Source: Metallibacterium scheffleri
Lineage (GTDB): Bacteria > Pseudomonadota > Gammaproteobacteria > Xanthomonadales > Rhodanobacteraceae
Direction of reading: 5' to 3'
NCBI RefSeq assembly: GCF_002077135.1
Contig: NZ_LDOS01000001.1
Location: 198,219 to 262,218, forward strand
DNA: 64,000 nucleotides
Notes under the pieces: model-generated
Databases searched by the model: none
What the model was told of the DNA's origin: nothing
The model's input: the letters and a program-made list of their open reading frames with translations, nothing else
Translations under genes and position numbers: made by a program
In this document: positions 38,581-50,369 of the stretch, in pieces
Position numbering within the stretch: the first letter of the stretch is position 1
Layout of the letters: every line of letters starts with the position of its first letter

Positions 38581-40080
38581 TCAGTCTTCCAGAGCCGAAC
38601 CACCACCGCCCAGATCCGCCGCAATCAGCCGGAACTGCTCCAGCGCGGCTTCGAGATCATCGACGATTTCCTGCGCGATCACCTCGGGCGCGGGCAGGTT
38701 GTCGCTCTCGGCCAGGCTGTCGTCGCGCAGCCAGAAGATATCCAGGCTGGCCTTGTCGCGCGCGATCAGCTCGTCGTAGCGGTAGGCACGCCAGCGGCCT
38801 TCGGGCGCGTCCGCGTTCCAGGTCGGCACACGCGCATGCCGGTTGGCCGTGTGGTAGCAGGTGACGAACTCGTCCAGATCCTCGCGCTTGAGCGGAGCGG
38901 TCTTCAGCGTGAAGTGCTGGTTGGTGCGCAGGTCGTAGATCCAGAGCGTCTTCGTCCATGGCGTCTCGGACGCCGGCTTCTTGTCGAAGAACAGCACATT
39001 GGCCTTGACGCCCTGAGCGTAGAACAGGCCGGTGGGCAGGCGCAGCAGGGTATGCACCTCGCACTCGTGCAGCAGCTTGCGGCGGATGGTCTCGCCGGCG
39101 CCGCCCTCGAACAGCACGTTGTCGGGCACCACCACGGCGGCGCGGCCGTGGATGTCGAGCAGCGTCTTGATGTGCTGCACGAAGTTGAGCTGCTTGTTGG
39201 ACGTGGTCGCCCAGAAATCATCGCGCTCGATGATCTCCTTCTCGGAGGTCGTGCGGCCGTCCTCGCCGACGATCATCGTGCTGGATTTCTTGCCGAACGG
39301 CGGATTGGCCAGTACCACGTCGTAGCGCTCGCCTGGGTCGCTGGCCAGCGCATCGGTCACCTGCACCGGCACACTGGTTTCCGAGCCGATGCCGTGCAGC
39401 AGCAGGTTCATCGCGCACACCCGCGCCGTCGCCTGCACCAGTTCGACGCCGGTAAAGGCATTCTCGCGCAGATGCTGTTTCTGCTCGCGCGTCAGGTTGG
39501 GGTGGTGCGCGATCACGTAGTTGTACGCGGTGAACAGGAAGCCGCCGGTGCCGCAGGCCGGATCGCAGACGTATTCGTCGGGTTTCGGCGCGATGCAGTC
39601 GACCATGGCCTGGATCAGCGCGCGCGGAGTGAAGTACTGGCCGGCGCCGCTCTTCAGATCCTGCGCGTTCTTCTCCAGCAGGCCTTCGTAGGCATCGCCC
39701 TTGACGTCCACGCCCAGCGCCGACCAGTTCTCCTTGTCGATCAGGTCGACGATCACGCGCCGCAGCTTGGCCGGGTCCTGGAACTTGTTCTGCGCCTTGC
39801 CGAAGATCAGGCCCAGCGTGCCCTTCTGCTGGCCCAGCGCTTCGAGCACGTGGCGGTAGTGATCGAACAGCTCGTCACCATCCTGCGCCACCAGCGTCGG
39901 CCAGGCATACGCAGCCGGGACGATGCTTTTCTGGCGATACGGCGGCTGCGTGCGCTCGTCGGCCATCTTCAGGAACAGCAGGAACGTGAGCTGCTCGACG
40001 TAGTCGCCGTAGCCCATGCCGTCGTCGCGCAGCACGTTGCAGTAGTTCCAGAGCTTTTGGACGAGGGTGGATGCGTTCAC
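38581..40080 (-). CDS. hsdM: Type I restriction-modification N6-adenine methyltransferase subunit
   Basis: 499 residues from a GTG at 40080 with TAGGAAG 5 nt upstream. SAM-binding motif I 'VCDPACGTGGFLFTAY' (about residue 173) and catalytic motif IV 'VVLANPPFGKKS' (about 259-262) are intact. The N-terminal helical domain begins 'STLVQKLWNYCNVLRDDGMGY', as in HsdM. With HsdS it methylates adenine in a bipartite target; with HsdR it restricts. It is the last gene of the operon, 39 nt after the DUF3037 gene rather than next to hsdS. Confidence 0.94.
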   Translation of the reverse strand: MNASTLVQKLWNYCNVLRDDGMGYGDYVEQLTFLLFLKMADERTQPPYRQKSIVPAAYAWPTLVAQDGDELFDHYRHVLEALGQQKGTLGLIFGKAQNKFQDPAKLRRVIVDLIDKENWSALGVDVKGDAYEGLLEKNAQDLKSGAGQYFTPRALIQAMVDCIAPKPDEYVCDPACGTGGFLFTAYNYVIAHHPNLTREQKQHLRENAFTGVELVQATARVCAMNLLLHGIGSETSVPVQVTDALASDPGERYDVVLANPPFGKKSSTMIVGEDGRTTSEKEIIERDDFWATTSNKQLNFVQHIKTLLDIHGRAAVVVPDNVLFEGGAGETIRRKLLHECEVHTLLRLPTGLFYAQGVKANVLFFDKKPASETPWTKTLWIYDLRTNQHFTLKTAPLKREDLDEFVTCYHTANRHARVPTWNADAPEGRWRAYRYDELIARDKASLDIFWLRDDSLAESDNLPAPEVIAQEIVDDLEAALEQFRLIAADLGGGGSALED

Positions 40081-40119
40081 AGGCTTCCTACCGCGCCGCG
40101 CCAGGATGCGGGCATCGCC

Positions 40120-40923
40120 CTAGGCGGCACGAGCAAAATCGAGGATGGCCCGCTGATCCGTCACCGGCACCACCTGCGCGCCGGCCTCGATCAGCCCTTG
40201 CCGCACTTCCTCGAACGCACCCACGTTGTCCGCATGGGCCTCCGGCTGCTGGACTGGCAGCAGCACAGCGGGTAACGCAAGCTGGCGTTGCAGATGACGC
40301 AGTCGACCGATCCATTGGTTGCCGTGGTCCAGCACGCGTATGGGATCGCCCTGCGCCAGATGCAACGGCTTGATTACGCGTCGGACGATGCCATCAGCTC
40401 CTACCTCGGCGAATGGCACGGGGAAGCGCACGGCATCTGTTCCCAGAGTGGTTTTGCGATAGCGCCCCGCCAGTCCTTCATGACGGAACACGCCGCGCAG
40501 CGCGCGGTCGAGCAGCACTTCCTGGTACTCAGCCGTCGCAAACATGTGCTCGACATACCGCTCATACAGCGCATCGAGCGTGGCTTCGACATCATCAGTC
40601 ATCACCGCGCGAACCGGCGAGAAACGAAAGAGCGATTCGCGCGGCCTCACCAGCTCGTCGAACGCGCGACCGCCCCACGCTGGCGTCGCTTCGGCCAGAG
40701 CCGTTATCCGCAGTATCTCGACTTCGAAATCCTTGCGCGCCGCGTTGAACACCTGCCGGTCGAGGGTGTCGAAAAACGCGCCGATTCGACGCCACTTCGG
40801 GTTGAGCCGAAAGATGAATGCGCCTGTTGCCGATGCATGAAGCACCACGCCGACGTTGGCGAATTCTTCGGTCTGCGCATAAGGCAGAAACCGGATAATG
40901 GCGTAGCGGGCGGCGGTCGTCAT
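40120..40923 (-). CDS. DUF3037 protein, partner of the HipA-like kinase
   Basis: 267 residues. The N-terminus 'ARYAIIRFLPYAQTEEFANVGVVLHAS' is the DUF3037 signature. The middle is helical, and the C-terminal third ('QRQLALPAVLLPVQQPEAHADNVGAFEEVRQGLIEAG') is less conserved. No catalytic motif or membrane segment is seen. DUF3037 genes are typically next to short HipA-like kinases, and here the start overlaps the kinase stop as ATGA. A role as antitoxin, regulator or substrate of the kinase is inference from that pairing. Confidence 0.75.
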   Translation of the reverse strand: MTTAARYAIIRFLPYAQTEEFANVGVVLHASATGAFIFRLNPKWRRIGAFFDTLDRQVFNAARKDFEVEILRITALAEATPAWGGRAFDELVRPRESLFRFSPVRAVMTDDVEATLDALYERYVEHMFATAEYQEVLLDRALRGVFRHEGLAGRYRKTTLGTDAVRFPVPFAEVGADGIVRRVIKPLHLAQGDPIRVLDHGNQWIGRLRHLQRQLALPAVLLPVQQPEAHADNVGAFEEVRQGLIEAGAQVVPVTDQRAILDFARAA

Positions 40924-41657
40924 TGTGTTCTGCCCCTGCGGATGTTGATGCGTTCATCAAGTCGGGCGCGACGGGCAGTCCAGTCTATACCAACCGGTAA
41001 CGTCGCCTCGGGGTCGAGCCAATTCCACTGTTCGGGCATGGATGCCAGCGCCTCATCGAACGAAGGCAGCGCGGCGCGCAGGCGGTTGGCTGCGTCGGTC
41101 CAGTTGATCCAGTCCTCGAACAGAGCGCTCGCATCGCCATGGAACACATGAGTTGCGAAAAATGTCGACTCATCGAATTCGCGATCGAACGCCAGGTTGT
41201 GGTCGATCACCAGCATGGCGTCACCCGCCGCGCGCCAGAGCAGATTGGGATTACCGCCCAGCTCCGACAGGGTGCGATCCGCGTTTTCCACCCACCAGTC
41301 GAACGCCAGCAACCGGCGACGCAGCGCCACATCAACGTTGCGAAGCTGCGCAATGGCAAAGTCCTGAACGCCGGATTCCAGTCGCGAACCGAATGCCGTA
41401 CTCGCGCCCAGGGCTCCACCTTCAGCACCCAGCGCCGCGACCAATTCGGCAGGCACCTCCAGCAACGTGAACGGCGGTATCGGCAGATCGAGCGCACGCC
41501 CCAGGTGCGCGCAAAGCCACTCGGCCACAAGGCCGCGCTGCGTGGTTTCGCGACCCTTGGCAACGTAGAGCGCATCGTCCTCGGCGCGAACCAGAAAAGG
41601 GCGCGTTCTGCCCTGCTCCATGCGGCGCAGGATTTCGACGACGCGCAAGGCGCTCAT
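40920..41657 (-). CDS. HipA-like kinase (HipA_2 type)
   Basis: 245 residues, about half the length of HipA and lacking its N-terminal subdomain. Kinase-like residues can be traced: Lys34 in 'LYVAKGRE', 'WWVENADRTLSELGGNPNLLW' with Asp127 and Asn138 as a catalytic-loop equivalent, and Asp152 in 'VIDHNLAFD' in the metal-binding (DFG-like) position. It may phosphorylate a protein or another target. ATGA overlaps join it to hsdS upstream and the DUF3037 gene downstream, so it is fully embedded in the hsd operon. Confidence 0.75.
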   Translation of the reverse strand: MSALRVVEILRRMEQGRTRPFLVRAEDDALYVAKGRETTQRGLVAEWLCAHLGRALDLPIPPFTLLEVPAELVAALGAEGGALGASTAFGSRLESGVQDFAIAQLRNVDVALRRRLLAFDWWVENADRTLSELGGNPNLLWRAAGDAMLVIDHNLAFDREFDESTFFATHVFHGDASALFEDWINWTDAANRLRAALPSFDEALASMPEQWNWLDPEATLPVGIDWTARRARLDERINIRRGRTQ

Positions 41658-43132
41658 CCGGCATCACCCGCGAATGCGCGCGTCAGCACGGATTGGCGCA
41701 GCGCCTGGGCGCGCTTGAGGTTGGCGTCCACCTCGGCCTCGACCTCACGGACGATGGACAGTCGGCGATCGACTTCGGCGACGATGCGGTGTTGTTCGCG
41801 CAGAGGCGGCAACGGAACTGGAAGCGTCTTGACGATGCCTAGATTCAAGATCTCCATGGTCCCGCCATGTGCCTGTCCCTTAAAGAACAGGGTAGCCCAC
41901 GCAGATTGGAGCATGTACGCAGCGTAGGCCGGTGCAATGAAGGATGGGTTGAGCGACAGTTTGATCAAGCGCGGATTGATGATGCCGGGCCTGGCGTTTT
42001 CTGGCAGCACGAGCACTTTCCCGGCTGTACCGACCAAACTGATGAGCAGATCACCCGGCTTGACGGTGCAGTTCTCGAGTTCACGGAACTTGGCTTCCTC
42101 GATGAAGTAATCGCCGAAGCTGTGATCACCTCGGATCACCTGCTCTTGACCATAGATCTTGTATCCCGAAGGAACATAGACGTCCTTCTTCAGGGCGCTT
42201 CCAAACGGCCCGGCTTTAAGTGCATGTTTGTCGGCAGACGACACTTGCTCGAATCCGCACCACACCCACCCCTCCGGCAACTTGGGCAAGCCGCTGGTAT
42301 CGGGCGCCGCAGGTTCCTTGTACTTGCCATTGCCCTTCCACTGGCTGCGACGGGTGTCGAGGATGCGCTTGAGAAGTTGTTCCCCCGTTTCATAGGGCAG
42401 GGCCGCTCCCGGCTTCCTGCCTCCCGCGGCATTCGCACTTCCCTGTGCAGCAAGCTCGGCGCCGGTCTCGAAGCTGCGGCCTTCGCGACGGGCGCGGTCG
42501 GCTTCGGTCTCAACGAGCCGGCCTTCGACGGCGGCCTTGAGCACGGAAGCCTTGTAGCGCTTGAGCTGCGCCTTGACGCGCTGCAGGCTGGCCACGGCCT
42601 GGTCTAGGCGGGAGAACTGCTTTTCGATCTCGGCGACAATGCGGCGCTGTAAAGCAAGTGGAGCCAGCGGCAAGCGTATATCGCTGATCTTGCTCGCGTT
42701 CACGTTGGGGATAGCGATGCCAGAAGTGTTGTCAGCAATCTGCTGCCAATAGTCGCGGCTCTTGAGGAAGTAAGCCAAATATCGCCCTTCCACCGTAGGG
42801 CCGGGGCGGAAGCGGATGAGGTAAGACGCGAACACGGATGGCTTCACTCGGGTGATCAAATAACTCACGCCGACCGATCCAGCGCGCGAGATGACAATGT
42901 CTCCCTCGTGCAAGAGGTATTTGTCGACGTCTGGCGGTTCGTCGGTGCAAAACGGAACAGTGGACCAATCTATCTCCCCGGATGTGATGTCTGTGGTTCG
43001 CAGCAGTCGAATACGACCGCCTTCGCTCATTGCCTTCGTGGTCCAGCCGTATTGCGGTTTAGAGCAAACACCACCGATGGTGACAGTTGACCAGCGCATT
43101 CCGGATCCCGCTTCCCCATCTGCGTAACTCAC
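41654..43132 (-). CDS. hsdS: Type I restriction-modification specificity subunit
   Basis: 492 residues, starting at a GTG that overlaps the hsdR stop (GTGA). Two target-recognition domains are separated by conserved helices: 'LALQRRIVAEIEKQFSRLD' to 'YKASVLKAAVEGRLV' (about 160-205) and a second copy at the C-terminus ('LREQHRIVAEVDRRLSIV' to 'ALRQSVLTRAF'). Each recognition domain reads one half of the bipartite DNA site. Both TRDs look complete, so the specificity should be functional. No inverted-repeat partner gene for phase variation is nearby. Confidence 0.92.
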   Translation of the reverse strand: MSYADGEAGSGMRWSTVTIGGVCSKPQYGWTTKAMSEGGRIRLLRTTDITSGEIDWSTVPFCTDEPPDVDKYLLHEGDIVISRAGSVGVSYLITRVKPSVFASYLIRFRPGPTVEGRYLAYFLKSRDYWQQIADNTSGIAIPNVNASKISDIRLPLAPLALQRRIVAEIEKQFSRLDQAVASLQRVKAQLKRYKASVLKAAVEGRLVETEADRARREGRSFETGAELAAQGSANAAGGRKPGAALPYETGEQLLKRILDTRRSQWKGNGKYKEPAAPDTSGLPKLPEGWVWCGFEQVSSADKHALKAGPFGSALKKDVYVPSGYKIYGQEQVIRGDHSFGDYFIEEAKFRELENCTVKPGDLLISLVGTAGKVLVLPENARPGIINPRLIKLSLNPSFIAPAYAAYMLQSAWATLFFKGQAHGGTMEILNLGIVKTLPVPLPPLREQHRIVAEVDRRLSIVREVEAEVDANLKRAQALRQSVLTRAFAGDAG

Positions 43133-45954
43133 GCCACCAACTCCCGATTCAGTTCCTCAATCACTTTGGGTAGCTGGGTGCCGAACAGTTGATGCACGCG
43201 CGCCAGGCCCCCGCGCTGGTTGAAGGGTGCGGCGTCGAAGTCTTCGAGGCGGATGTCGAGGCTGGCGGCGATGTGCTCGGCGATCCGCTCCAGCCACCAC
43301 TGCTGCTCGTCCCCAAACGATTTCCCATGGGCCTGCTGCTGGCCCAGCCAAGCCTTGAAATTGGCGGCGACGCGCTCGGGGTACGGCACCAGCTCGTTGT
43401 CCTGATGCATGGCATAGCGCACCAGGCTGACCAGATCGGTGAGGATACGCTGGCGGCTGGCCCCTTGGACTTTGCTCTGGTCCAGCGCGGCATAGGCCTG
43501 CCAGAGCGCGCTCTCGTCCAGCAGATACGGCGGCGCCTGCAGGCTGTCGGCCAGTTGCTTGATGGCCTCGAAGGTCAGTGGGGCGCGGGTGGGCCGGTTG
43601 TAGAGAATCTGCAGCGCGGTGATCTCGTCACGGTGCTGGGCGATGAACGACTCGAAGGTCTCGACCATGCTGCGCGCGCGATCGCTAGCGGCGGCGCTGA
43701 AGCCGGCCTCGATCAGGTGATCGGCCGTCACGGTGTCCACCACCATGTCGGCCTGCTGGCGCAGCCGCAACAGCAGCTCGCGCAGCGCGGGATCGGACAG
43801 CGGCTTGGCGGCTTCGGTGAGCGCGGCGCGCAGTTCGCCGCCCTCGCCCGCGAGCTGTGGCGCCGTGGCAGATGCGGGTGCGCTGAAGTCGCCGTGCAGC
43901 GCATCGACCAGCCGTCGCGACAAATCCTTGAGGCCGTAGCCGCCGCTGGCGGCGACCACCCTGGCCTTGTCGGCATCGTCGATGTCGCGATCCAGCCGTG
44001 CGAGGCGCGCGGCCACCGACGAGATCACTTCCGGCTCGACGTTGCCCAGCGCGACCGCCTGCAGCAGCTTGTCCAGCGGCACGGACTTCTTCTGGTCCAT
44101 CGGCCGGCTGTCGGTCTTGTCGCGCTCGCACACGCCGACCGCGTCGACGATGACAAAGTGGTCCTTGCTGCGCGCGTCCGGCGTCACCGCCTGCAGGTCG
44201 GCCGGATTGATCACGCGCACGCCGCGACCCTTCATCTGCTCGAAGAACGAGCGCGACTTGACCGAGCGCATGAACATCACGATCTCGACCGGCTTGATGT
44301 CGGTACCGGTAGCGATCATGTCCACGGTGACCGCAATGCGCGGGTGGTAACTGGTGCGGAAGGCACGGATCAGGGACTCAGGCGTGGCGCCCGTCGTGCG
44401 GTAGGTGATCTTCTGCGCGAACTCGTTGCCCTTGCCGAATTCCTCGCGCAGGATCTGCACGATGGCCTCGGCGTGGTTGTCGTCCTTGGCGAACACCAGG
44501 GTCTTGGGCACCTCGGTACGGCCGGGGAAGATCTCGCCGAACAGGCGATCGCGGAAGGTGCGCACCACGGTGCGGATCTGGTCCGGGGTCTGCACGGCGC
44601 GGTCGAGCTCGGCAGGGTCGTAGGCGAAGTCCTCGTCGAGCTGCCAGTCGCTGCGCCGGCGCGTCTGGCGATCGAGCAACTGCACGTAATAGCCGGCCTC
44701 GACGGTGCTGCCCTGCTCGCTCACGTTGGTGCGGATGCGGTAGACGTCGTAGTTGACGTTGACGCCATCGGCCACGGCCTGCGAGTGGCCGTATTCCATC
44801 ACCAGGTTCTGGTTGAAGAAGCCGAAGGTCTGCTTGCTGGGCGTGGCGGTCAGGCCGATCAGGTAGGCATCGAAGTATTCCAGCACCTGCCGCCACAGGT
44901 GGTAGATCGAGCGGTGCGCCTCGTCGGTGATGACGATGTCGAAAGTCTCGATCGGGAACGCCGGGTTGTATTCCAGCGGCGGCGTGTCCTTGAACAGCCC
45001 TTCGGCGTCCTCGGTGCTGTGCTCCTCGTCCTCGTCGGGGAGTTCGCGGCCCTTGAGCATCGAGTACATGCGCTGGATGGTGCAGATGACCACGCGCGCG
45101 GACGTGTCGAGCTGGCTGGAGGTGAGGTGCTGGACGATGTACTCCTCGCCGAACTTGTAGTTGTTGTAGGGCGAGACGTACTGGTCGAACTCCTTCTTGG
45201 TCTGCCGGCCCAGATTGCCGCGATCGACCAGGAACAGCACCCGGCGCGCGCCGGCGAACTTGATCAGGCGGTAGCTGAGCACGATCGCCAGCAGGGTCTT
45301 GCCGGAGCCGGTGGCCATCTGCACCAGCGCGCGCGGGCGGTTTTCGCGCAGCGACTGCTCCAGCTTCGCGATCGCCTGCGGCTTGGGCGGCCACAGGTCG
45401 TCGATCAGCGACGGCAACTGCTGCATGCGCGCGAGGAAGGTTCCAGCCGCGGTGTTGGCGGGCGCATCGGCGATCACGTCAGCGCGAACGGCGGGCGTTG
45501 CGCCTTGCGCTGGCGCCGCGATCAGCCACGCCGCCAGCGTCTCGGGCCGATGGAAGGCGAACACGGAACGCGCGCGCGGCTCGGGATCGAGGCCGTTGGT
45601 GTAGTGGGTTTCGACGCCGGTCGATTCATAGAGAAACGGCAGCGGCCGGCGCCAGGCGGGCAGGCTGGCAGGCAGACCTTGTGCATAACGACCGGACTGC
45701 GTTTCGACGCCGGTGAGCGTCGCGCCCTGCTTCTTGGCCTCGATCACGCCGCAGGCGCGGCCATCGACATACAGCAGGTAGTCGGCGGTGCCGTGGCCTT
45801 CGACCAGCGGAAACTCGCGAATCGCGACGCCGCGCGCGGCGTGCAGATTGACCTCGGCGAGGTTCTGCACCGCCCAGCCGGCGGCGCCGAGCAGGGTGTC
45901 GATGGTCTGCCGCGCGGCTTGTTCCGGGGTGAGGGCACCTCGTGGCGGCGTCAT
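43129..45954 (-). CDS. hsdR: Type I restriction endonuclease subunit R
   Basis: 941 residues from the ATG at 45954 (GGGAG 5 nt upstream); a 15-codon longer frame lacks such a site. The N-terminal nuclease has the PD-(D/E)xK pattern 'GTADYLLYVDGRACGVIEAKK' region with Glu72 and Lys74. The SF2 translocase has Walker A 'MATGSGKTLLA' (about 212-222) and 'ITDEAHRSIYH' (DEAH 344-347). Later helicase motifs include 'VDMIATGTDIKPVEIVMFMR' and 'QMKGRGVRV'. The C-terminal part contacts the methylase. It cuts unmethylated DNA after translocation. First gene of the operon. Confidence 0.94.
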   Translation of the reverse strand: MTPPRGALTPEQAARQTIDTLLGAAGWAVQNLAEVNLHAARGVAIREFPLVEGHGTADYLLYVDGRACGVIEAKKQGATLTGVETQSGRYAQGLPASLPAWRRPLPFLYESTGVETHYTNGLDPEPRARSVFAFHRPETLAAWLIAAPAQGATPAVRADVIADAPANTAAGTFLARMQQLPSLIDDLWPPKPQAIAKLEQSLRENRPRALVQMATGSGKTLLAIVLSYRLIKFAGARRVLFLVDRGNLGRQTKKEFDQYVSPYNNYKFGEEYIVQHLTSSQLDTSARVVICTIQRMYSMLKGRELPDEDEEHSTEDAEGLFKDTPPLEYNPAFPIETFDIVITDEAHRSIYHLWRQVLEYFDAYLIGLTATPSKQTFGFFNQNLVMEYGHSQAVADGVNVNYDVYRIRTNVSEQGSTVEAGYYVQLLDRQTRRRSDWQLDEDFAYDPAELDRAVQTPDQIRTVVRTFRDRLFGEIFPGRTEVPKTLVFAKDDNHAEAIVQILREEFGKGNEFAQKITYRTTGATPESLIRAFRTSYHPRIAVTVDMIATGTDIKPVEIVMFMRSVKSRSFFEQMKGRGVRVINPADLQAVTPDARSKDHFVIVDAVGVCERDKTDSRPMDQKKSVPLDKLLQAVALGNVEPEVISSVAARLARLDRDIDDADKARVVAASGGYGLKDLSRRLVDALHGDFSAPASATAPQLAGEGGELRAALTEAAKPLSDPALRELLLRLRQQADMVVDTVTADHLIEAGFSAAASDRARSMVETFESFIAQHRDEITALQILYNRPTRAPLTFEAIKQLADSLQAPPYLLDESALWQAYAALDQSKVQGASRQRILTDLVSLVRYAMHQDNELVPYPERVAANFKAWLGQQQAHGKSFGDEQQWWLERIAEHIAASLDIRLEDFDAAPFNQRGGLARVHQLFGTQLPKVIEELNRELVA

Positions 45955-46088
45955 GATCGCTCCCAGACAGGCGCGTCCAGCCGAGCCCACTTGGTGCACG
46001 CGGTCGACTGGACAGCGATGGTGCGCAACAGCCCGCTCCCTTGGAATCAGCGCGCGCCATTATGCAGCAGAGAGTCGAACTTGCAGCG

Positions 46089-46164
46089 TGGTGGGCCCAC
46101 CAGGACTCGAACCTGGAACCAAAGGATTATGAGTCCTCTGCTCTAACCATTGAGCTATAGGCCC
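46089..46164 (-). tRNA. ileX: tRNA-Ile2 (anticodon CAU)
   Basis: 76 nt with encoded CCA. The acceptor GGGCCTA pairs with TGGGCCC, D stem is GCTC/GAGC, anticodon stem GAGGA/TCCTT, loop CTCATAA (anticodon CAT), and a T arm with GGTTCGAGTCC. The 8-nt D loop (AATGGTTA) and variable region match E. coli ileX more than elongator tRNA-Met, and G1-C72 pairing excludes initiator tRNA. As tRNA-Ile2 it would need TilS to make lysidine at C34 and read AUA. Its first 30 nt and its leader are repeated 15 times directly upstream. Confidence 0.93.
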
Positions 46165-46179
46165 GATGCTGTGCTGCAC

Positions 46180-46185
46180 AGTGTA
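46180..46185 (-). promoter_or_regulatory. Candidate -10 box of tRNA-Ile2, repeated in every unit
   Basis: TACACT on the minus strand, 15 nt before the first tRNA base. The same box occurs in the leader of each 144-bp unit and before the outermost unit. No consensus -35 box is visible at 16-18 bp, so promoter activity is uncertain. Confidence 0.3.
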
Positions 46186-48208
46186 GCGGGGCAAAAATCG
46201 CCGGACTCTCACCCGCCCTCGCCTTTCGACTCGGGCGCTCGCCGGCGCGCAGCCGTGCTGCGCGAAATCCCGCCTCGCCCTCTGCTCTAACCATTGAGCT
46301 ATAGGCCCGATGCTGTGCTGCACAGTGTAGCGGGGCAAAAATCGCCGGACTCTCACCCGCCCTCGCCTTTCGACTCGGGCGCTCGCCGGCGCGCAGCCGT
46401 GCTGCGCGAAATCCCGCCTCGCCCTCTGCTCTAACCATTGAGCTATAGGCCCGATGCTGTGCTGCACAGTGTAGCGGGGCAAAAATCGCCGGACTCTCAC
46501 CCGCCCTCGCCTTTCGACTCGGGCGCTCGCCGGCGCGCAGCCGTGCTGCGCGAAATCCCGCCTCGCCCTCTGCTCTAACCATTGAGCTATAGGCCCGATG
46601 CTGTGCTGCACAGTGTAGCGGGGCAAAAATCGCCGGACTCTCACCCGCCCTCGCCTTTCGACTCGGGCGCTCGCCGGCGCGCAGCCGTGCTGCGCGAAAT
46701 CCCGCCTCGCCCTCTGCTCTAACCATTGAGCTATAGGCCCGATGCTGTGCTGCACAGTGTAGCGGGGCAAAAATCGCCGGACTCTCACCCGCCCTCGCCT
46801 TTCGACTCGGGCGCTCGCCGGCGCGCAGCCGTGCTGCGCGAAATCCCGCCTCGCCCTCTGCTCTAACCATTGAGCTATAGGCCCGATGCTGTGCTGCACA
46901 GTGTAGCGGGGCAAAAATCGCCGGACTCTCACCCGCCCTCGCCTTTCGACTCGGGCGCTCGCCGGCGCGCAGCCGTGCTGCGCGAAATCCCGCCTCGCCC
47001 TCTGCTCTAACCATTGAGCTATAGGCCCGATGCTGTGCTGCACAGTGTAGCGGGGCAAAAATCGCCGGACTCTCACCCGCCCTCGCCTTTCGACTCGGGC
47101 GCTCGCCGGCGCGCAGCCGTGCTGCGCGAAATCCCGCCTCGCCCTCTGCTCTAACCATTGAGCTATAGGCCCGATGCTGTGCTGCACAGTGTAGCGGGGC
47201 AAAAATCGCCGGACTCTCACCCGCCCTCGCCTTTCGACTCGGGCGCTCGCCGGCGCGCAGCCGTGCTGCGCGAAATCCCGCCTCGCCCTCTGCTCTAACC
47301 ATTGAGCTATAGGCCCGATGCTGTGCTGCACAGTGTAGCGGGGCAAAAATCGCCGGACTCTCACCCGCCCTCGCCTTTCGACTCGGGCGCTCGCCGGCGC
47401 GCAGCCGTGCTGCGCGAAATCCCGCCTCGCCCTCTGCTCTAACCATTGAGCTATAGGCCCGATGCTGTGCTGCACAGTGTAGCGGGGCAAAAATCGCCGG
47501 ACTCTCACCCGCCCTCGCCTTTCGACTCGGGCGCTCGCCGGCGCGCAGCCGTGCTGCGCGAAATCCCGCCTCGCCCTCTGCTCTAACCATTGAGCTATAG
47601 GCCCGATGCTGTGCTGCACAGTGTAGCGGGGCAAAAATCGCCGGACTCTCACCCGCCCTCGCCTTTCGACTCGGGCGCTCGCCGGCGCGCAGCCGTGCTG
47701 CGCGAAATCCCGCCTCGCCCTCTGCTCTAACCATTGAGCTATAGGCCCGATGCTGTGCTGCACAGTGTAGCGGGGCAAAAATCGCCGGACTCTCACCCGC
47801 CCTCGCCTTTCGACTCGGGCGCTCGCCGGCGCGCAGCCGTGCTGCGCGAAATCCCGCCTCGCCCTCTGCTCTAACCATTGAGCTATAGGCCCGATGCTGT
47901 GCTGCACAGTGTAGCGGGGCAAAAATCGCCGGACTCTCACCCGCCCTCGCCTTTCGACTCGGGCGCTCGCCGGCGCGCAGCCGTGCTGCGCGAAATCCCG
48001 CCTCGCCCTCTGCTCTAACCATTGAGCTATAGGCCCGATGCTGTGCTGCACAGTGTAGCGGGGCAAAAATCGCCGGACTCTCACCCGCCCTCGCCTTTCG
48101 ACTCGGGCGCTCGCCGGCGCGCAGCCGTGCTGCGCGAAATCCCGCCTCGCCCTCTGCTCTAACCATTGAGCTATAGGCCCGATGCTGTGCTGCACAGTGT
48201 AGCGGGGC

Positions 48209-48324
48209 AAAAATCGCCGGACTCTCACCCGCCCTCGCCTTTCGACTCGGGCGCTCGCCGGCGCGCAGCCGTGCTGCGCGAAATCCCGCCTCGCCCTCTG
48301 CTCTAACCATTGAGCTATAGGCCC
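48209..48324 (-). ncRNA. Putative small RNA encoded by each array unit (outermost copy given)
   Basis: Representative of 15 copies. Within a unit, nt 45-63 form a perfect 8-bp hairpin (CGCGCAGC-acg-GCTGCGCG). Alternatively nt 62-67 pair with 105-110 (CGCCGG/CCGGCG), enclosing CGCCC/GGGCG (72-76, 91-95), followed by A and five T at 112-116, which resembles an intrinsic terminator. A transcript from the leader to the T-run would be about 115-125 nt and begin with a tRNA 5' half. Transcription is unproven and the whole call is inference from sequence layout. Confidence 0.3.
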
Positions 48325-48360
48325 GATGCTGTGCTGCACAGTGTAGCGGCAGGCGCAAAG

Positions 48361-48421: not shown

Positions 48422-50272
<1,851 letters not shown>

Positions 50273-50369
50273 GCCGTGCACCGTGGGGTGAATGAACCTT
50301 CCAGTTTAATCAGTTGGCGACGTTCTGACCACTATTCAAGCGCGTGGTTCCTTGGCACGGAGCATGCGT

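Follow-up and report, generated by a model that had tools for sequence, protein, structure and literature searches.

A tandem array ahead of a predicted tRNA-Ile2 gene is tied to a dispersed folded element found beside copies of gene ends

The array ahead of tRNA-Ile2

The window, a stretch of 64,000 nucleotides from Metallibacterium scheffleri (genome G000; 3.76 Mb, 5 contigs), carries a tandem array directly 5' of a single intact tRNA gene, behind rpoD. Apart from this gene, whose anticodon is CAT, the window showed no tRNA. ARAGORN labelled it tRNA-Met; judged from its sequence, it is most probably tRNA-Ile2(CAU), and it is called so below. The array alternates a gene-start copy (D) with a second sequence (E). 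Where the two copies flanking an E are distinguished, D1 is the gene-end copy before E and D2 the copy behind it, continuous with the intact gene. R1 is a covariance model of E with 69 positions and 24 pairs, built from 12 aligned examples. The features of the locus are as follows.

46089..46164, minus strand: intact tRNA gene, anticodon CAT (ARAGORN; Rfam RF00005, 74.6 bits)
46165..46189, minus strand: leader of the intact tRNA with a TACACT box at 46180-46185 (sequence)
46135..46189, minus strand: last D copy (leader plus tRNA nt 1-30), within the intact gene (exact decomposition)
46190..48349, minus strand: array proper, 15 identical 144-bp units, each E plus its upstream D (TRF, decomposition)
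46190..46278, minus strand: E copy closest to the tRNA, 89 nt (R1 match 46212-46280, 70.2 bits, taking in the GG of the adjoining D)
46202..46215, minus strand: weak terminator-like hairpin, then T5; one per unit, 15 in the array (consensus match only)
48206..48294, minus strand: E copy most distant from the tRNA (R1 match 48228-48296, 70.2 bits)
48295..48349, minus strand: first D copy, nearest rpoD, without an upstream E (sequence, decomposition)
48422..50281, minus strand: rpoD, the upstream neighbour (NCBIfam NF004208, 864 bits, cut-off 555)

TRF reported a tandem repeat at 46135-48349 with a period of 144, 15.4 copies, 100% match, 0% indels, and a score of 4430; all remaining TRF rows in the window scored at most 83. 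A script decomposed the minus strand of this interval exactly into (D+E)x15+D, with 16 copies of D (55 nt: tRNA nt 1-30 preceded by the 25-nt leader) and 15 copies of E (89 nt), the break between D and E falling between tRNA nt 30 and 31. The D copy nearest rpoD adjoins the rpoD 3' region, and the copy at the other end continues into the intact tRNA. The first-pass annotation, made from the letters alone, had described fifteen identical 144-bp units 5' of the tRNA in which only the tRNA 5' part and leader were copied, and this description proved exact. Its remark that tRNA-Ile2 is usually single was also borne out, with one intact copy in the genome as far as searched. A 27-nt tRNA 5' pattern occurred 16 times genome-wide, and the 10 places listed were all inside the array; the unit probe gave at least 15 matches in the genome, all listed ones lying in the array (40 of 95 candidates scored). 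Since there is no extra intact tRNA copy, an effect of the array could act only on transcription or stability of the tRNA. Long ORFs spanning the array were taken as spurious, as they follow from a period that is divisible by 3.

Downstream of the tRNA, a type I restriction-modification locus occupies 38581-45999 on the minus strand. Its M, S, and R subunit matches were below the NCBIfam cut-offs, and two unnamed genes lie between M and S.

A dispersed folded element

About 67 of the 89 nt of E are part of a structured element that is dispersed at many sites away from tRNAs. The family is non-coding and about 90-170 nt long, and the E of this array is atypical in ~22 nt at its 3' end and in much of the second hairpin region. 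The first-pass annotation had asked whether the unit core always sits at tRNA-Ile2. It does not, since accB, purA, rpe, murA, and other genes show the same arrangement. The annotation had also named a core scattered over non-tRNA sites as an ordinary REP-like repeat as the finding that would speak against its reading. The scattering was found for the ~67 nt between the tRNA fragments; the ordinary REP-like nature was not, given a larger fold, REP-mobilising transposases (RAYT) that seem not to track E, and long gene-end duplications.

In the set of relatives, R1 matched in at least 27 of 61 genomes (E-value ≤ 0.01, strict filters); the scan scored at most 83 candidates per genome, so these counts are lower bounds. 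G000 had at least 18 matches, of which the array accounted for 15, rpe for two, and accB for one. Within the window there were four more matches, all weak (15-20 bits), and in the 400 kb beside it the accB copy was the sole strong match, accompanied by two weaker ones. A strict sequence pattern of E was present in only 11 of the 398 genomes of the order, so the distribution of E is patchy. Loci with repeats also occurred in Luteimonas, Lysobacter chinensis, Vulcaniibacterium, and a Nevskia MAG, among the matches listed. Among 80 loci listed in a further search, 27 had an R1 match at an E-value ≤ 0.1, and these included all 12 loci flagged for long repeats; the remaining 53 are probably chance matches. 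No Rfam 15 family was found on E in the loci scanned, where the scans gave tRNA, Plastid-ycf2 (overlapping the tRNA), group I intron, and weak STnc matches. No description of an E-type element was found in the open-access papers searched.

The fold of E comprises 24 pairs in 4 helices and forms two hairpins. Across 82 distinct E sequences, 94.6% of cells were pairing, compared with 74.9% in shuffles, and 19 of the 24 pairs had changed on both sides, compared with 13.3. The covariation score was 0.499 against 0.132 for shuffled sequences and at most 0.066 for slid partners, figures in which structure is favoured by an alignment fitted to the R1 model. G-U cells numbered 53 and A-C cells 25, with one pair supplying 20 of the G-U. 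This covariation supports a conserved fold of E.

According to a crude gene finder trained on the window genes, E fell within a predicted gene at 2 of 95 positions (L223, L260). The E head read TGA in 26 of 86 cases, and an open frame of at least 145 codons lay to the left of 10 of these 26, compared with 9 of the 60 other E copies. Thus some copies may sit at gene 3' ends and supply the stop codon, without duplication.

Two further groups of E-like sequences were observed. Near-identical copies with a GCGAGGACAC..GTGTCCTCGC hairpin (L249, L260, L262, L276, L301) were found in Gammaproteobacteria MAGs without a flanking repeat, and are perhaps a separate subfamily. In G056 and G047 (L040-L048, L055), a longer repeat of about 300 bp encloses an E-like head; 11 aligned copies of this repeat were near-identical, some of them at contig ends.

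Host genes, joints, and gene lineages

A long direct repeat that stops where E starts and continues after E was found at 51 of 112 distinct E positions and at none of 192 random positions drawn from the same loci. The other 61 positions had no such repeat at the threshold used, which counts against an insertion-with-duplication reading. The test used 113 of 150 matches, one place being doubled, after extra copies within arrays, low-scoring matches, and places already represented had for the most part been dropped. The repeats were 22 to at least 153 nt long, the longest being limited by the search window, and the copy behind E typically continued into an intact gene. NCBIfam named 19 of 20 such genes tested. 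Matches above the cut-off were purA, rpe, murA, ubiG, argC, hisF, trmB, mnmG, accB, a YfhL-type ferredoxin, and a PduO-type adenosyltransferase. Those below it were phosphoglycerate kinase, pyruvate dehydrogenase beta subunit, a molybdopterin oxidoreductase, a permease, a 2-hydroxy-3-oxopropionate-reductase-like gene, SecA, and two NlpD/ActS-like genes, several host genes scoring low because the gene is cut or divergent. The duplication is at the 3' end in the SecA and NlpD-like genes, with E antisense, and at the start in the other named genes.

The joint between gene and element was nearly uniform. At 37 of 45 loci the overlap between native gene and element is exactly 2 nt, GG in 35 of them, after which the element proper begins GCGAG or GTGAG, a sharp 5' end; in this comparison one row (L093) was taken at the wrong period and another (L110) was weak. 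The idea that the upstream region was duplicated as well was set aside: the sequence upstream of D1 was slightly closer to the E tail than expected from shuffled pairs (8.88 against 7.56, sd 0.33, 30 loci), but locus L390 supplied much of this excess. At rpe of G000 (L089, C2:390300-393000), two consecutive E units have different gene-start lengths and different GG joints.

The accB gene provided both occupied and empty sites. D1-E-D2 is present there in 5 of 13 genomes of the same genus (G000, G009, G004, G005, G006) and missing from the other 8. G012 encodes an AccB 91% identical to the G000 protein; there, the sequence upstream of accB is directly continuous with the gene and matches the stretch upstream of D1 in G000. 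The added part is therefore E with its tail. Within a species D1 and D2 differ little or not at all, but they differ between species, suggesting homogenisation. Their codon differences at the aligned loci were 48 synonymous and 25 not; 34 loci were tried, L093 was not found, and the misaligned L103 (2 synonymous, 17 not) was excluded.

E copies clustered by host gene and not by genome. Likeness was 0.794 for the same gene across genomes (47 pairs), compared with 0.703 for different genes in one genome (33 pairs) and 0.684 for unrelated pairs (823), and none of 2000 label shuffles reached this. This is contrary to the prediction of frequent jumping between genes.

At tRNA-Ile2 itself, a single 5' copy was found in 25 of 29 other genomes read, with more in G009, G047, G049, and G056. 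In G009, a sister species of the same genus, one D-E unit separates rpoD from tRNA-Ile2; it is 94% identical over 144 bp. The tRNA 5' pattern was present in 250 of 398 genomes of the order and in more than one copy in 13; among these 13, the copies lie ~20 kb apart in G030 and G396, and G295, G315, and G375 were identified by pattern only. E also occurs at tRNA-Ile2 in several other genera, with different tRNA pieces. In G007 the repeated piece is the 3' part of tRNA-Ile2, antisense, and in G236 one R1-supported unit (54.9 bits) holds most of the tRNA. G398 has two tRNA-Ile2 units with weak R1 matches (21-23 bits), and G096 has three tRNA-5' units that are E-like by eye only, with no R1 match. 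The E copies at tRNA-Ile2 of G009, G047/G056, G049, and G236 had a mutual likeness of 0.57-0.74, near the unrelated level. Together with the unequal tRNA pieces, this suggests several separate events. Multi-unit arrays elsewhere were found at purA in G035 (4 units), at trmB in G007 (2 units), and at tRNA-Ile2 in G056.

Known systems and the origin of the array

REP and BIME sequences are short, palindromic, non-coding repeats dispersed in Gammaproteobacteria including Xanthomonas and Stenotrophomonas, and can form clusters (PMC2817692, PMC3733652). E shares all of these properties. However, the REP head is of the GTAG/GTGG type (PMC2817692), whereas that of E is GCGAG or GTGAG behind GG, and E has a two-hairpin fold and long gene-end duplications. 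The RAYT family, which is IS200/IS605-like, is described as causing no larger duplications of the target (PMC2817692). An ordinary REP was rejected by head, size, and duplications. The IS1549/IS1634 elements are reported to produce direct repeats of 8 to 514 bp, varying by copy, for which no mechanistic model is given (PMC2266710). These elements resemble E in having long direct repeats of variable length (found at nearly half of the E positions), but they are 1.5-2 kb long and have a transposase gene and terminal inverted repeats. By eye, no inverted ends were common to the E loci, and the 3' end of E was not sharply defined.

The rtT repeats at E. coli tyrT are likewise tandem repeats beside a tRNA gene, each with a tRNA fragment. 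However, the rtT fragment is the tRNA 3' end on the 3' side, whereas here the 5' part is copied on the 5' side and tied to a dispersed element; the Rfam scans of the loci covered gave no rtT match. Integrative elements such as SXT at prfC insert in a conserved gene and duplicate the gene end, leaving the gene whole. The same is proposed for E at its host genes, but its unit of 140-240 bp has no integrase or cargo. Nothing suited to a comparison with such gene-end-restoring elements was found in the open-access papers searched. A tRNA-targeted genomic island, with its integrase gene and duplicated tRNA 3' end, was rejected, as copying is confined to the tRNA 5' part and the 144-bp unit holds no gene. 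A phage or plasmid origin was also rejected: there was no plasmid match, and the one phage record covered 23% of the probe, at a place annotated as a phage tRNA.

Among 61 genomes, no mobilising enzyme tracked E out of RAYT, IS1634 transposase, and reverse transcriptase. The Y1 transposase (PF01797) was found in 41 genomes including G000, with no match in the E carriers G004, G007, G012, and G035, which makes RAYT a less likely mobiliser; the assemblies of G004 and G007 are 87% and 72% complete, which bears on the absence. The IS1634 transposase (NF033559) was found in 12 genomes and in none of the E-rich G004, G007, G008, G010, G046, and G059. Retrotransposition was set aside in the same way, with a reverse transcriptase (PF00078) in 14 genomes and in none of the E carriers G004 to G010. 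G000 itself had 17 IS1634-family and 15 reverse-transcriptase matches, the most of the 61 genomes searched.

The array is probably a tandem expansion of a gene-start copy D plus E, in which E is a mobile element inserted with duplication of the gene end. E would join directly behind GG, at tRNA-Ile2 behind tRNA nt 29-30, and the gene end would be duplicated on insertion, so that the leader and first 30 nt recur behind E with the intact tRNA downstream. The resulting direct repeats would permit unequal recombination or slippage, multiplying the 144-bp unit to 15 identical copies. Both the insertion with duplication and the expansion by recombination are steps that we infer. More tentatively, E may represent a new class of gene-less mini-elements that join precisely behind GG in core genes and supply or cause a copy of the gene end, each host gene tending to have its own element lineage. 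Core genes, including the only tRNA-Ile2, would thereby be made expandable, and copy number may alter expression.

Alternatively, the mobile unit could be one whole period of E, tail, and gene start (about 140-240 bp), and not E alone. It would leave by recombination between D copies and enter an E-less allele of the same gene homologously at D. Gene exchange among strains and species would spread it without a transposase, after a rare illegitimate event had founded each gene's lineage. The greater likeness of E within a gene than among genes of one genome, the excess of synonymous D1/D2 differences, and the patchy presence at accB within one genus favour this scheme, which we nevertheless consider the less likely one. 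The two-base joint rule at more than 12 different genes demands a site-specific founding step, the tRNA-Ile2 copies of different genera are at most slightly closer to each other than unrelated pairs are, and the same-gene likeness also fits simple vertical inheritance with loss. The unit could instead be a maintained regulatory leader, its array setting tRNA-Ile2 transcription or yielding short tRNA-5'-half RNAs under selection for copy number. The terminator-like hairpin in every unit (15 in the array, compared with 2.0 in shuffles, sd 1.4), the -10-like TACACT box, also seen by eye upstream of tRNA-Ile2 in several relatives, the conserved fold with its G-U excess (inflated by a single pair), and the protein sequence retained in some D1 copies point this way. 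However, the array check found no sigma-70 promoter match, most relatives do without the arrangement, and an attenuator-like fold was rejected because unit and core barely beat shuffles (z -1.70 and -0.41), leaving this reading improbable. Finally, the unit number of 15 comes from one assembly in which every unit is identical, and could reflect collapse or inflation. This seems very improbable for an array inside a 1.18-Mb contig when multi-unit arrays recur in unrelated assemblies, and such an artefact could alter only the unit number, not the existence of D-E.

These findings connect the array with an element, dispersed and folded, that leaves its host genes intact by lying beside a copy of their ends. 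If insertion of E with gene-end duplication holds, it would explain how a non-coding element lives in essential genes, and would mark direct-repeat hot spots in core genes at which copy number could change. It would also pose a testable question, namely which activity joins GCGAG to GG. For annotation, short gene-start copies before core genes could be read as scars of the element.

Additional sequence was seen within or beside tRNA-Ile2 of some relatives. The tRNA-Ile2 array of G056 (L039) has units of unequal length, and one of its tRNA copies (~1843-2070, reverse) is lengthened by additional sequence in the region of the anticodon and, close to its 3' end, is fused to E. A group I intron follows the anticodon of tRNA-Ile2 in L018 of G004 (1523-1762; RF00028, 63.7 bits) and in L026 of G020 (1267-1506; RF00028, 72.8 bits).
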